This document shows positions 31,008-39,993 of a stretch of 57,548 nt of DNA, piece after piece. Source of the stretch: Candidatus Desulfovibrio intestinavium. Its GTDB lineage: Bacteria; Desulfobacterota; Desulfovibrionia; Desulfovibrionales; Desulfovibrionaceae. The stretch is taken from positions 1 to 57,548 of the forward strand of contig DWZD01000034.1 of assembly GCA_019118345.1 (NCBI GenBank). The letters are read 5' to 3'. The first letter of the stretch is position 1; each line of letters begins with the position of its first letter. The translations under genes were made by a program, and so were the position numbers. Below the pieces are notes generated by a model that had not been told where the DNA came from, ran no database searches, and was given only the letters and a program-made list of their open reading frames with translations.

Positions 31008-31022
31008 CCTCAGGTGGCAGGA

Positions 31023-32261
31023 ATGAACAAGTCTGATCTCATTGTCGGTCTTGATATCGGCACAACCAAGATTTGCGCGGTGGTCGGCCAGCTCAACGAG
31101 GCCGGCGGCATCGAGGTGGTCGGCATCGGCAACAGCGTGTCCACCGGGCTGCGGCGCGGCGTGGTCGTCAATATCGAGCAGACCGTGCAATCCGTGCGCA
31201 AGGCGGTGGAAGAAGCCGAACTCATGGCAGGCTGCGAGATCAATTCCGTCTATGTGGGCATTGCCGGCAGCCACATCATGGGGATCAACAGTCACGGGAT
31301 CATTGGGGTCAAGGGTGGGGAAGTCTCTCAGCGCGATATCGAGCGCGTGCTCGATGCGGCGCGGGCCGTGGCCATCCCCGCGGATCGCGAAGTCATCCAC
31401 ATCCTGCCGCAGGAATATACCGTCGACAATCAGAACGGCATCGCCGATCCCCTTGGCATGGCCGGCATACGGCTGGAAGTGCGCGTGCACATCGTGACCG
31501 GCGCCATTTCCTCGGCGCAGAATATTGTGCGTTCCTGCCATCGTTCGCAGCTTGAGGTGTCGGAAATCGTACTCGAATCCCTTGCCTCGGCCAAGGCCGT
31601 CCTCACGGACGAGGAGCGCGAGATCGGCGTGGCGCTGGTGGATCTGGGCGGCGGCACGACGGATATTGCCGTCTTTGCCAACAATGCCATCAAGTATACC
31701 TCGGTGCTGGCCCTTGGCGGGCAGAACCTCTCCAACGACATCGCCTTCGGCCTGCGGACGCCCCTGGCCTCGGCCGAGAAGATCAAGATCAAGTACGGCT
31801 GTGCCCTGACCGAACTGGTGCACGCCGACGAATACATTGAAGTGCCCAGCGTGGGCGGCAGGGAATCCCGCCGCCTGACGCGGCAGGTGCTGGCGGAAAT
31901 CTGCGAACCGCGCATGGAGGAAATCCTCTACCTTGTGGATCAGAGCCTTGTCAGCTCCGGTTACAAGGATCTCATCGGCGCCGGCGTGGTCCTCACGGGC
32001 GGGACATCGCTGATCGAAGGTTGCCAGGAGCTTGGCGAGCAGATTTTCAACCTTCCGACGCGCATAGGCTATCCGCGCAATGTGGGCGGCCTCAAGGACG
32101 TTGTCAACAGTCCCAAGTTCTCCACGGCAGTGGGACTCTTGTGCTACGGCGCGGAAAAGGAAATGAGCGGGCAAAAGAAATTCACCTCTTCGCACAATGA
32201 AAGCAGCATGTTCGAGGGGCTGCTGTCGCGCATGAAGAAGTGGTTTGCCGACGTTTCCTAG
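31023..32261 (+). CDS. ftsA: cell division protein FtsA
   Basis: The product has 412 residues and an actin fold. It opens DLIVGLDIGTTKICAVVG (phosphate 1), has the SHS2/1C region with EVIHILPQEYTVD, the phosphate 2 motif LVDLGGGTTDIAVF and the adenosine motif VVLTGGTSLIEG. It ends in an amphipathic helix (MFEGLLSRMKKWFADV), the membrane-targeting sequence. FtsA tethers FtsZ to the membrane. ATG 31023 with AGGTGG upstream is preferred over GTG 31014. Confidence 0.96.
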   Translation: MNKSDLIVGLDIGTTKICAVVGQLNEAGGIEVVGIGNSVSTGLRRGVVVNIEQTVQSVRKAVEEAELMAGCEINSVYVGIAGSHIMGINSHGIIGVKGGEVSQRDIERVLDAARAVAIPADREVIHILPQEYTVDNQNGIADPLGMAGIRLEVRVHIVTGAISSAQNIVRSCHRSQLEVSEIVLESLASAKAVLTDEEREIGVALVDLGGGTTDIAVFANNAIKYTSVLALGGQNLSNDIAFGLRTPLASAEKIKIKYGCALTELVHADEYIEVPSVGGRESRRLTRQVLAEICEPRMEEILYLVDQSLVSSGYKDLIGAGVVLTGGTSLIEGCQELGEQIFNLPTRIGYPRNVGGLKDVVNSPKFSTAVGLLCYGAEKEMSGQKKFTSSHNESSMFEGLLSRMKKWFADVS

Positions 32262-32308
32262 TTTTCTTTTTTGCGGGCAATACAGGCAACATAACGAGGA
32301 GAGGAAGC

Positions 32309-33628
<1,320 letters not shown>

Positions 33629-35983: not shown

Positions 35984-37351
35984 ATGGCCAATCGGGCGGA
36001 CTGCATACGCGCGGCCGTGGCGGCGGGCGCGACGGAGGAGCAGGCGGCGGACATCGTGGACGCCATCATGGAGGAAAAGAAGCGCCTCAGGGAGGAAGGG
36101 CGGCTCACGCGGGAGAATCTGGAACAGGCCTGGCGGGAACGCGCGCCGGAGGTGGAACGGGCGGCGGACCTCAAAAAGCGGCGGGCCATGCTTTCCGCCA
36201 TACGGCGCAACGAGGCCCTGACCGACATCCGGCGCGCGCAGGATGCGGGCTTCGACTTTCTGGACGGGCTGAAAGCCCTGCTCGTGGGCAGGTCCAAACG
36301 CTTCACCGGCGCGCGTCAATCCATCGCCGCCCAGCGCCGCGCCGTGTTCACGGCCTGGGCGGAACCGCTGGTGCGCGAGCTGGACGGCCTGGGAGCAGGG
36401 GGCGCGGAGGGCATGGGCAAGGGCGGCGTGCTGAAGCTCTTGCGCGAGGACAAGGACTTTCATGACGCGGTCATCATCGCCATGCGCGAACCGGATGCGG
36501 AGGCCGCGCCGCTGGTGCGGGAAACGGCTGAGGTCGTCACCCGTTATGCCGAGGCGGCGCGGCGGCGCTTCAATCTGACGGGCGGCGACATGGGCCGCCT
36601 CGAGGGCTGGACGCCGCAGCTCCACAGCGCGGAAAAGCTGCTCAGGGCCGGGCGGGAGAAATGGAAAGAGGCAATACTGCCCCTGCTGGACAGGGAGCGC
36701 ACCTTCGGCCGCCACGCCGCCGATGCGGAACGCGTCTCGGAGGTGCTGGACGGCATCTATGATACGCTGACCCTCGGCAGGAATCCCTTTCTCGCCGCCG
36801 GGAGCGGGAGCGGCAAGGGCGTGGGCAAAAACGCCGCGCGACCGCTGGAACAGTCGCGCGTCCTCCACTTCGCGAGCGGCAGGGACGCCGTGAAATACCA
36901 TGACCGTTTCGGCTCCGGCAGCCTCATCGACGCCACCGTGCGCCACCTTGACCGCATGGCGCGGGCCGTGGCGCTCATGGAGCGGCTGGGGCCGAACCCG
37001 GAACAGACCGTGCGGCGGCTCATCGACGACGAACGCGCCCGCGTGTACGCCGACAAAACGCTTGACCAGAAGACGAAGGACGGTCTTTTGCGGCGACTGG
37101 ACGCGGCCATGAAGCCCGGCGTGACGGGCGGCGCGCCTTCCCGGGACAGGCCGCCGCCAGACGTCTGTCATTTTCTTGCTGTCCTTGCCCGCTCGCCTTA
37201 CGCTCCCTGCGGCGTGTCCTCCTGCTTTTCCAGAGCGGCCCGCAGTTCCTGCGGCGGAATGTGCCGCAGCGTTTGCACGATATCCGGATCAAAGGCGTCG
37301 CTTTGGCTCAGAATGTCAAGCGCCTGTTCGATGGGCATGCCGCTGCGGTAG
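35984..37351 (+). CDS. 3'-truncated phage virion protein
   Basis: The ATG at 35984 has GGAGGTGTGAGC upstream. The frame starts MANRADCIRAAVAAGATEEQAADIVDAI and is strongly helical and charged, typical of large internal virion or tail-tape-like phage proteins. Phage-like sequence continues to about 37140 (TKDGLLRRLDAAMKPGVTGG). After that the frame runs antisense into the 3' end of the bacterial gene at 37198, so about the last 65 codons are not native. The recombination joint therefore lies near 37140-37190. No specific family is recognised. Confidence 0.65.
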   Translation: MANRADCIRAAVAAGATEEQAADIVDAIMEEKKRLREEGRLTRENLEQAWRERAPEVERAADLKKRRAMLSAIRRNEALTDIRRAQDAGFDFLDGLKALLVGRSKRFTGARQSIAAQRRAVFTAWAEPLVRELDGLGAGGAEGMGKGGVLKLLREDKDFHDAVIIAMREPDAEAAPLVRETAEVVTRYAEAARRRFNLTGGDMGRLEGWTPQLHSAEKLLRAGREKWKEAILPLLDRERTFGRHAADAERVSEVLDGIYDTLTLGRNPFLAAGSGSGKGVGKNAARPLEQSRVLHFASGRDAVKYHDRFGSGSLIDATVRHLDRMARAVALMERLGPNPEQTVRRLIDDERARVYADKTLDQKTKDGLLRRLDAAMKPGVTGGAPSRDRPPPDVCHFLAVLARSPYAPCGVSSCFSRAARSSCGGMCRSVCTISGSKASLWLRMSSACSMGMPLR

Positions 37352-39270
37352 GCCCGGTCGCTGGTCATGGAACAGAAGGCATTGACAATGGCCAGAATGC
37401 GGGAATGGATATTGATGTCCATGCCCTTCAGGCCGCGCGGGCCGCTGCCGTCGAACTTTTCGTTCATGTCGTACACGGCTTCTGAGACAGGCAGGCCGAA
37501 CGGAATGCCTTTCAGAATATTGAAGGCGTATTCGGTGGAGCGCAGCACGGCCTGCTGCTCCTCGTCCGTCAGTTTGCCGCTTTTCTGCAGCAGCTCGTGC
37601 GGCACGAATATCTTGCCGATCTGGCAAAGCCGGGCCGCCATGTGCAGGGTGGTGACGTCCGGGGCGTCAAGCCCCATGTGGCGGCTCAGCACGGCCGCGA
37701 CTTGCTCCATCTTGAGGCTGTGCCCCACAAGATTGGGATCCACATTTTCCACGGCCCGAATCAGGGCGTCCATCAGGTTGCGTTGCAGGGCCTTGGCCTG
37801 CAGGGCCTTTTTGCGGAACTGGGTAATGTCGTTGAACATGGCGACGACACTGAGGGCGTCCTCGTGCGTCTCGCCGCCCTCATCGCCGCTGAACAGGGAG
37901 AGAGAGACCCGGTACAGGCGCTGCTCGCCGTCCTGCCCGGTCAGGGAGATTTCCACGTCGTCTGCCGAAGCGTCCTGCTGCTTGCGGGCAATGCCATCCC
38001 GCAGCGTCCGGGCGGCTTCCGCCGGAAAAATGTCGTCCAGGGCCGTCCCTTCGGGCTGATCGTGGCCCAGCATGCCGCAGATGCGGGCAAATTCGGGGGT
38101 AAAGAGGCGAATGCCGCCCTGCGGGGAAAAGAGGACGATGCCGACCTGCAGCGAGGCATTGATGCTGTCCAGCAGCTGTTTCTGATCCCGAATGAGGGTA
38201 TAGAGCGTTTTGAAATAGGCGGCCATGGCCTGATGCGCGCGACCGGCCAGAAAGGAGACGCCAAAGGCCAGCAGCAGCGCAACGCCGGCGCAGCCGATGA
38301 CTGCCCCCAGATAGACGATCAGGCTTTTGCGGCTGATTTCATCGTCAACAAGCCGGGCGGGGATGGCCGCTTCCAGCAGGAAGCTGTCAGGCAGGTGCGC
38401 CAGCCTGATGAGGGAATAAACCTCGGCGTCCCCTCGCAGTCCGGCACGTTTCGCAAAGGTCTGGGATTGAGACGTGCGGGCGCCGTCCGCCAGAGGGCGC
38501 ATGCACAGGGCATTGTCCTGCACAAAAAAGACGGACTGCCCCTGCGGAGAGATGTCTGCCAGCTCCAGCAGCACTTCCTTGTCATGGAGCAGAGTGAACA
38601 AAAAGGTGTTCATCTTGAAGGTGAATACTGCGCAGCCGATGACGGCGGGCGTTTCCACGCCGCTGAGTTCGAGCAGGGGGGCCGCCACGCCGAGAAGGAT
38701 ATCTTCGTCATTCGCTTCCAGCGAAGAAAAGAGCGTCTGGCGCGAGGCCATGCTGAGCTGGACGAGCTGGGCGGTGAATGAGGGGGCGGCGCTTGCGGCG
38801 CTATCGACAATCTTGCTGCCGTCCGGCAGGAACAGGCTGATGCGCTGTATGCTGCTGCTGCCCCGGGCCATGTCGGCCAGCAGGCGCTGCATATAGTCGC
38901 GCTGCTCCAGCAGGGATTGCTGGCCCTCATCCAGCGTTTCCCGCGACGCTTCCGGGGCATGCAACAGGTCTGCGGGCAGGGTGGCCATGTCCTGAACAAA
39001 AAGGCGTATGGCCTCTGAGGTTCGCACATTCTGCACCTGATCCAGGATGTCTGAGCGCCAGAACTGGAGGCGCTGCTGCATGGTATCCATCTTGGAAAGG
39101 AGGAAGCGGTTTCTGGCGCTGAAAATCTCCTGCTCCGTCCGGCTGATCTCGAGCTGGCAAAGCGCATAGCAGAAGGCGACCACCAGAAGGAAGAAAAGGA
39201 TGCTGCCGATGACGAGCTGCCGTTTTGTCCAGCGCAGTTTGCGTGGCATTTCCGGGAAGTAGGTGCTCAT
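37198..39270 (-). CDS. membrane sensor with PAS and degenerate HD-GYP domain (LapD-analog candidate)
   Basis: The product has 690 residues, with membrane helices at about 19-40 and 317-342 flanking a periplasmic domain of about 275 residues. A PAS-like domain follows (about 365-470, SINASLQVGIVLFSPQGGIR), then an HD-GYP-like C-terminus (about 500-690). HD-GYP proteins normally have HDIGKI and HHExxDGxGYP; here the first reads LCQIGKI (residue about 548) and the second YDMNEKFDGSGPRGLKG (about 605), so metal ligands and the GYP tip are lost. SDRAYRSGMP near the end is retained. It starts three bases after the LapG-like gene. In Pseudomonas, LapD uses a degenerate EAL domain to hold LapG, so a c-di-GMP receptor role is inferred. 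Confidence 0.75.
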   Translation of the reverse strand: MSTYFPEMPRKLRWTKRQLVIGSILFFLLVVAFCYALCQLEISRTEQEIFSARNRFLLSKMDTMQQRLQFWRSDILDQVQNVRTSEAIRLFVQDMATLPADLLHAPEASRETLDEGQQSLLEQRDYMQRLLADMARGSSSIQRISLFLPDGSKIVDSAASAAPSFTAQLVQLSMASRQTLFSSLEANDEDILLGVAAPLLELSGVETPAVIGCAVFTFKMNTFLFTLLHDKEVLLELADISPQGQSVFFVQDNALCMRPLADGARTSQSQTFAKRAGLRGDAEVYSLIRLAHLPDSFLLEAAIPARLVDDEISRKSLIVYLGAVIGCAGVALLLAFGVSFLAGRAHQAMAAYFKTLYTLIRDQKQLLDSINASLQVGIVLFSPQGGIRLFTPEFARICGMLGHDQPEGTALDDIFPAEAARTLRDGIARKQQDASADDVEISLTGQDGEQRLYRVSLSLFSGDEGGETHEDALSVVAMFNDITQFRKKALQAKALQRNLMDALIRAVENVDPNLVGHSLKMEQVAAVLSRHMGLDAPDVTTLHMAARLCQIGKIFVPHELLQKSGKLTDEEQQAVLRSTEYAFNILKGIPFGLPVSEAVYDMNEKFDGSGPRGLKGMDINIHSRILAIVNAFCSMTSDRAYRSGMPIEQALDILSQSDAFDPDIVQTLRHIPPQELRAALEKQEDTPQGA

Positions 39271-39273
39271 GGC

Positions 39274-39993
39274 TTACTCACTGATTTTTTTACCTTTCAT
39301 ATGCGCCCAGCGGCCCTGCTCATTGAAGGAAAACTGCGGCGAGTAGTTGCGCAGCCTTGTGTGGGACAGGACGCTGTTGCTGAGATTGTCCAGAATGAGA
39401 ATATCATCATCGGTGTAGACGGCAAGCACGGCATGGGGCAGGCGACGCAGCGTATCCCGCAGCACGACAATGCGCATCTTTTCGACCGGCACGCCCAGTT
39501 CCTTGAGCGTAAAATATTTGATAATGGCGTAATCCTCACAATCGCCGGACTTTTGCAGGAAGGCATTGGGCCAGGCCCAGTAATCCGGCAGCCCCCAGTT
39601 CTCCTTGTCCTCGCGATAGGGAAAGCGGTTCCAGAAGGCATTGACGTACCGCAACAGTTCAACGCCTGTTTTCCCGGCAGCTTCCTGCTGGAATTTTTCC
39701 CAGGTGACGCCCTTGCGAAAGACTTTTTCCTTGAGAAAAATGGGTTCCTCGGCGTTCTTGTTGCGAACGGTCTCCCAGGCGGGCAGGCTGGAAAGGGGGC
39801 GCTTGAATTCCACCGTGCCGAACAGGCCGGCGCCAAGAGCCGCCGTGGGCCAGAACGGCAGGGCCGCCAGCAGCAGAAGAGCGGCCAGCCCTGTGCGGAT
39901 GCCATGCCGCAGGGCGCGGGCGGCAAGCGCCGGCGGCTTCGCAGCCCCGGCAGCGGGTGCCGCATGATGCCAGTGGATGATTCTGTTCGCCAT
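39274..39993 (-). CDS. LapG-like periplasmic transglutaminase-like cysteine protease
   Basis: The product has 239 residues. A hydrophobic signal (about 32-54) is followed by a BTLCP/DUF920 protease domain. WNRFPYREDKENWGLPDYWA and SGDCEDYAIIKYFTLKELG give catalytic Cys152, PHAVLAVY gives His187 and ILDNLS gives Asp202, so the triad is complete. LapG proteases cleave large surface adhesins near their N-terminal retention module when c-di-GMP falls. The partner membrane gene follows by three bases. No LapA-like adhesin or type I secretion system is in this window. No clear ribosome site precedes ATG 39993. Confidence 0.85.
   Translation of the reverse strand: MANRIIHWHHAAPAAGAAKPPALAARALRHGIRTGLAALLLLAALPFWPTAALGAGLFGTVEFKRPLSSLPAWETVRNKNAEEPIFLKEKVFRKGVTWEKFQQEAAGKTGVELLRYVNAFWNRFPYREDKENWGLPDYWAWPNAFLQKSGDCEDYAIIKYFTLKELGVPVEKMRIVVLRDTLRRLPHAVLAVYTDDDILILDNLSNSVLSHTRLRNYSPQFSFNEQGRWAHMKGKKISE

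Follow-up and report, generated by a model that had tools for sequence, protein, structure and literature searches.

A LapG-type protease and two DvhD-family receptors with diverged putative nucleotide sites in Candidatus Desulfovibrio intestinavium

In the 2.53 Mb genome of Candidatus Desulfovibrio intestinavium, a gene for a LapG-type cysteine protease is followed at once by a gene for a membrane receptor with a degenerate HD-GYP domain, and this pair raises the question of which known switch, if any, it represents, and whether the receptor governs the protease alone. The window, meaning the whole analysed stretch of 57,548 nucleotides, is contig 17 of 54 in this assembly. A sequence-only reading of it had proposed the inside-out logic of the Pseudomonas LapD/LapG switch rebuilt on a degenerate HD-GYP fold, possibly as an alternative class of adhesin-retention switch. 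The receptor of the window is called D2 below, and the features of the pair are as follows.

39274..39993, minus strand: dvhG-like gene for a LapG-type cysteine protease of 239 aa (from the open reading frame, a profile match and an alignment)
39271..39273, minus strand: intergenic gap of 3 bases between the dvhG stop and the dvhD2 start (...gag taa gcc atg...)
37198..39270, minus strand: dvhD2 gene for a membrane receptor of 690 aa with dCache, PAS and degenerate HD-GYP domains
D2 residues about 45-315: periplasmic dCache domain of the DvhD type (from a profile of 12 D2 relatives)
D2 residues about 360-490: PAS domain
D2 residues about 495-675: degenerate HD-GYP domain
37621..37626, minus strand: codons of Cys549-Gln550, which replace the HD metal-binding pair (LCQIGKI)
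37438..37443, minus strand: codons of Gly610-Pro611 (GSG-PRG), with no Tyr between them where GYP has one (Tyr621 in DvhD)

The protease matches Peptidase_C93 with 68.8 bits (cut-off 27), and the triad C152-H187-D202, read from the sequence as intact, is invariant in an alignment of 15 relatives together with its calcium-site neighbours D151 and E153. Against the NCBIfam LapG model the score is 100.1 bits, with a cut-off of 320. The first about 55 residues resemble a signal peptide by eye, and the protease is predicted to be periplasmic; it is the sole C93 gene found in its own genome. The 3-base spacing of the two genes, also correctly read, fits their co-transcription. Among 80 named DvhG loci, a DvhD-type receptor comes after the protease on the same strand in 69, and in 6 of the remaining 11 the contig ends just past the protease.

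The receptor had been described as a membrane protein with a periplasmic domain and a PAS domain, and this description holds. Hydrophobic helices are seen by eye at about residues 19-41 and 317-341, and a profile of 12 D2 proteins matches the PDB entry 9rc2 along a periplasmic-sized domain (E 1.9e-24). The PAS_9 match, at 26.2 bits, is slightly below its cut-off of 27, and the PAS region aligns to 9rc0. The HD_5 match reaches 133.9 bits (cut-off 27.2), and the best PDB matches are 9rc0 (E 2.3e-44, over PAS and HD-GYP) and 9rbz (HD-GYP), both named 'HD domain/sensory box protein' in the PDB; the codes 9rc0, 9rbz and 9rc2 were assigned to DvhD fragments via the aligned region. The reported lack of HD and GYP residues is borne out as well: C549-Q550 stands in place of HD, Met-Asn in place of the double His, and GYP has lost its Tyr. 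Window-type D2 rows have Gln as the second HD residue in 32/32 cases and are without Tyr621 in 31/31 readable ones, so that the loss of HD and GYP residues is not an error of a single genome.

A switch with this architecture is known from Desulfovibrio vulgaris Hildenborough. The main text of a Nat Commun 2026 paper (PMC13090378) describes the Dvh (Bfs) system, consisting of the protease DvhG (DVU1019), the dCache-PAS-HD-GYP receptor DvhD (DVU1020) and the adhesins DvhA and DVU1545, and reports crystals of three kinds of DvhD fragment (9rc0, 9rbz, 9rc2). According to the same text, DvhD binds c-di-GMP and, more weakly, 3'3'-cGAMP, gave no hydrolysis in assays and carries Ser-Gln as its HD pair and Met-Asn as its double His; mutation of P567, R650, Y652 or R653 weakened stabilisation by c-di-GMP, and DvhG cuts di-alanine sites in adhesin sequences. 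An earlier reconstitution in P. fluorescens is also described (PMC13090378, PMC11784015). The proposed inside-out logic on a degenerate HD-GYP fold was therefore the right reading, but not a new class, as it had already been published as DvhG/DvhD (BfsG/BfsD).

As in the Dvh system, the protease of the window adjoins a receptor of dCache, PAS and degenerate HD-GYP domains. In DvhG of D. vulgaris a membrane helix is combined with a linker of some 180 residues, whereas the window protease has 239 aa and a signal-peptide-like start; most DvhG orthologues have predicted signal peptides, as stated in PMC13090378. With LapD/LapG of Pseudomonas fluorescens the pair shares the protease family and the inside-out logic of control. 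LapD, however, combines a LapD/MoxY periplasmic domain with HAMP-GGDEF-EAL, as the same main text gives it, and a search of the window receptor at E up to 1 detected no LapD/MoxY, HAMP, GGDEF or EAL domain. PmGH (4mcw, 4mdz) and other active HD-GYP phosphodiesterases belong to the same HD-GYP sequence family as D2, which, unlike them, lacks the HD, double-His and GYP residues.

Candidates for the remaining parts of such a switch are encoded at two further loci of the same genome.

L009:12826-16713, plus strand: RTX adhesin of 1295 aa with RTX repeats and the motif EDLMPAAG, on a contig other than the window
L020:380-8118, plus strand: exporter operon TolC-ABC (LssB-type)-HlyD-D1, separate from the protease operon

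The genome search for an adhesin with a di-alanine site, suggested by the sequence-only reading, thus yielded a putative substrate with a PAAG site. Its N terminus comprises a BapA-prefix-like stretch and then SGADFFAALGEDLMPAAGPAAG, in line with the layout given in print, a retention domain with a helix and a [T/A/P]AAG site; the BapA_N matches are under their cut-offs (20 bits against 27 in Pfam, 29.2 against 35 in NCBIfam). The [TAP]AAG motif is kept in 120/120 N-terminus homologs listed of 350 found, all at least 79% identical, and more distant adhesins near DvhG at L064 and L067 carry PDLLPAAG. At E up to 0.1 the genome gave one match only to this N terminus, and so no second adhesin of its kind; the search went by likeness of the N terminus, and an unlike second adhesin would lie outside its reach.

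In the exporter operon, TolC, the LssB-type ABC protein and HlyD each score above the NCBIfam cut-off, and the last gene encodes D1, a DvhD-type receptor of 693 aa. D1 and D2 share 34% identity over 357 aligned positions, which span PAS, HD-GYP and the second membrane helix. With E 9.9e-25, 9rc2 is also matched by a profile built from 12 D1 proteins; as the D2 profile matches it too, both receptors have a periplasmic domain of the DvhD type. D1 stands after LssB and HlyD in 20/20 further D1 loci, which were hand-picked. The adhesin with its retention-domain-like N terminus and di-alanine site, and the TolC-ABC-HlyD exporter, are again as in the Dvh system. The differences are that the parts here are spread over three loci, with the protease next to D2, the exporter next to D1 and the adhesin on a third contig, that there are two receptors, and that D2, without Tyr621, carries Asn at 523 and Gln at 582.

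From this gene content and the analogy with D. vulgaris, the LapG-type protease and a DvhD-family receptor without HD-GYP metal ligands likely control adhesin release by a cyclic dinucleotide, with a second DvhD-type receptor beside the type I exporter, and this much can be held with good confidence. As in D. vulgaris, the exporter would lodge the adhesin in the outer membrane so that its retention domain sits in the periplasm, and the nucleotide-bound receptor would restrain the protease; once the nucleotide falls, the protease would be freed to cut the PAAG site, and the cell would let go. A search of the genome gave eleven GGDEF domains. The core of this arrangement is already known, and the second DvhD-type receptor in the exporter operon is the part not found in print. 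Literature searches that took in PMC11784015, PMC5646257, PMC6890996 and the main text of PMC13090378 found no description of a two-receptor arrangement; the words 'paralog' and 'duplicat' each have 0 occurrences in the main text of PMC13090378, and the Lap and Dvh switches in the literature searched are presented with a single receptor for each protease.

The two receptors differ in their nucleotide pockets, for which positions are given in DvhD numbering. In DvhD, Tyr621 and Lys582 contact one phosphodiester of c-di-GMP and Tyr523 a ribose, and Arg650 contacts the other phosphodiester (main text of PMC13090378). The window D2 keeps 4/8 canonical contacts (L577, M646, R650, Y652) and 1/3 bridging contacts; it has other residues for Y523 and K582 and none for Y621, and it retains P567, R650, Y652 and R653. 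The D1 of the same genome keeps 5/8 canonical contacts and the DvhD of Nitratidesulfovibrio (L065) 7/8. These differences recur in sets of relatives assigned by hand from the HD-domain tree, with rows more than 95% identical removed within each set (D2 from 49 to 32), a filter meant to take out repeats, as the named loci and the G-handle loci are probably in part the same genomes; the incomplete L041 was excluded from site counts and trees. In the thinned D2 set N523 is present in 31/32 rows, and Q582 in 25 of the 31 readable ones, D2 row L042 being masked at residues 582-621; P567, L577, R650 and R653 are kept in 32/32. The D1 rows are invariant for Y523, R582 and Y621 (21/21), and Tyr621 is invariant in 26 DvhD-proper proteins. 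With N523, Q582 and no Tyr621 beside a retained Arg650, window-type D2 receptors appear to have swapped their contacts to one half of the ligand and to retain those to the other. The mean pairwise identity of the HD domains is nearly the same, 0.67 for D1 and 0.66 for D2 in 22 genomes with both, which argues against simple decay of D2.

The altered pocket is no trait of the whole D2 lineage, since three basal relatives (L053, L055, L061) keep both Tyr523 and Tyr621. Four other D2-side rows (L059, L066, L069, L070) have lost both tyrosines and are without the Asn; these seven rows were kept outside all pocket sets. Eight D2 proteins, L071 and seven shortened forms, make up a divergent group that retains Tyr523 but no longer has Tyr621 or Tyr652, so that D2 may possibly have decayed in part of its lineage. 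The idea that the tyrosines were lost from D2 only where D1 exists was rejected, as six readable D2-only genomes are also without Tyr621; conversely, G079 and G164, outside the genus, hold both receptors and keep the D2 tyrosines.

A tree of 64 proteins, built on PAS plus HD-GYP after removal of 4 shortened rows and 8 that were odd or long-branched, and rooted on a pair of distant, long-branched canonical HD-GYP proteins, gives the D2 clade a support of 98/91 and the D1 clade 100/98; DvhD of D. vulgaris groups with D1 (98/92). An earlier quick tree of the HD domain alone, with rows more than 85% identical dropped and the odd rows kept, supported D2 more weakly (81). Of two canonical HD-GYP controls chosen from the genome itself, one (L008) was omitted, having no frame with an HD.GK motif. 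By the tree, the window D2 is a paralogue, not an orthologue, of the tested DvhD within one wider family. The receptor of G149, a genome outside the genus with a single operon of exporter, DvhG and receptor, is sister to the D1 clade (97/94). The simplest history would be that D1 descended from the receptor of such a one-operon system and that DvhG came to be linked to an older paralogue, D2. An attempt to read the choice of partner from correlation with DvhG divergence was uninformative (0.93 for the D2 dCache, 0.91 for the D1 dCache), species relatedness being common to all.

Both receptors are widespread in the genus. DvhG occurs in 56/79 genus genomes and a D1-type receptor (at least 250 bits to D1 and a lower score against D2) in 40/79, tallied by hand; 38/40 of the latter also have DvhG, and the two without it, G002 and G040, are 63% and 74% complete. 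DvhG with an adjacent D2-type receptor and D1 elsewhere is found in 38/79. The D2 of these 38 is one long frame in 29, lies over two contig ends in one (G004) and is shortened to 446-617 aa in 8; the shortened loci are L190-L197, each beside DvhG with D1 elsewhere, and the seven with readable sites have lost Tyr621 and Tyr652. The other 18 DvhG genomes include seven with D2 beside DvhG and no D1 (G025, G026, G027, G029, G063, G075, G076), four of them at least 93% complete and G027, G075 and G076 63-82%; six of the seven have a divergent exporter operon, the contig of G076 being too short, and all six readable D2 sites are without Tyr621. Three further genomes have D2 alone (G046 and G050, 78-80% complete, and G058, complete), one has two D2-type proteins and seven have a weakly D1-like second protein. 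The D2-only genomes indicate that D1 may not be needed for D2 to act. In a sample of 149 genomes of the family, a D1 match (E 1e-70 or better) was found in 9, of which 6 belong to the genus; the other three are G149, with its single operon, and G079 and G164, which carry exporter-D1 and DvhG-D2 on separate contigs.

The best reading of these sequences is that two receptors, diverged in their cyclic-dinucleotide sites, govern a single protease, and adhesion is predicted to depend on both of them, as against the one receptor studied in D. vulgaris. D1 would be the receptor with the more DvhD-like, putative c-di-GMP site, and D2, with its remodelled site, would give a second and differently tuned input on the same protease, either as its own dimers or mixed with D1. 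That D1 acts on the window protease we infer from two things, its linkage to the exporter and its family membership. A fuller version can be put forward tentatively, as a possibility somewhat short of probable: Desulfovibrio of the D. piger type would have a two-receptor gate in which one protease answers to two ancient DvhD paralogues, D1 senses c-di-GMP, the D2 site is re-specialised (for another ligand, another affinity or none) and release needs both inputs.

It is also quite conceivable, though again not probable, that D2 is a plain DvhD equivalent that binds c-di-GMP as the sole receptor on DvhG, with D1 doing otherwise, for example regulating the exporter. The co-encoding of D2 with DvhG, the occurrence of D2 alone in some genomes and the position of D1 with the exporter in 20/20 hand-picked loci all agree with such a division, as does the retention in the window protein of P567, R650, Y652 and R653; it is at odds with the replacement of Y523 and K582 and the missing Y621 there, and with the fact that D1 has both tyrosines and groups with the tested DvhD.

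A rather unlikely alternative is that D2 has given up nucleotide sensing and serves as a constitutive partner or scaffold for DvhG, while D1 senses c-di-GMP, perhaps in mixed dimers. Two contacts to one phosphodiester and a ribose contact have indeed been lost, and the divergent group of mostly shortened forms shows a different loss that includes Tyr652; but D1 and D2 are alike in the conservation of their HD domains, the Asn that replaces Tyr523 is nearly invariant across the thinned D2 rows and some genomes have only D2. The conservation of the contact replacement, which does not look like random loss, would suit a D2 that responds to another cyclic dinucleotide such as 3'3'-cGAMP, a ligand that DvhD already binds, if more weakly than c-di-GMP (main text of PMC13090378); this reading is improbable. 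Despite its good HD_5 score, the window receptor is hardly conceivable as an active HD-GYP phosphodiesterase unrelated to the protease, given Cys-Gln for HD, Met-Asn for the double His, the lack of hydrolysis by DvhD with Ser-Gln and Met-Asn (main text of PMC13090378) and the gene pair in 69/80 DvhG loci.

If two diverged receptors do act on one protease, adhesion in D. piger-type bacteria would be a coincidence or graded decision, as opposed to a single c-di-GMP threshold, and the protease-linked receptor of D. piger should not be assumed to behave like DvhD. The D1 and D2 pockets differ at a few contacts and offer a natural test of ligand choice in HD-GYP receptors.

Several minor observations concern the organisation of these genes and their surroundings. 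In D. piger ATCC 29098 (L023, 2020-12778) the exporter-D1 and DvhG-D2 halves lie on opposite strands, back to back, their stop-to-stop frames at least 130 bases apart, and one intergenic region may control both. D2 relatives of 1086-1093 aa exist (L037:10678-13956, L044:10537-13815 and P0006), and P0006 shows by eye several near-identical PAS modules in series; this suggests growth of a PAS array in a receptor of the DvhD family. Within the genus, G020, G030, G050 and G053 have three C93 matches instead of one.

In the window itself, no riboswitch or other Rfam RNA was found at the gathering threshold, and no tRNA. A phage remnant (33884-37351, plus strand) lies between ftsA-ftsZ-like genes (31014-33628) and the receptor gene. 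It includes a 114 aa fragment of an integrase arm-binding domain, a 601 aa open reading frame with weak virion-protein matches and a 457 aa open reading frame whose match to the virion structural protein phrog_684 is confined to positions 3-357 of the 840 in the profile; beyond the match, the frame of the last continues across the receptor gene's 3' end, which lies on the opposite strand. Outside the sulfate reducers, DvhG is found beside a degenerate HD-GYP receptor in records named Alphaproteobacteria (L078, L087, L090, L101 and L102), which include Kiloniella and Geminicoccaceae.
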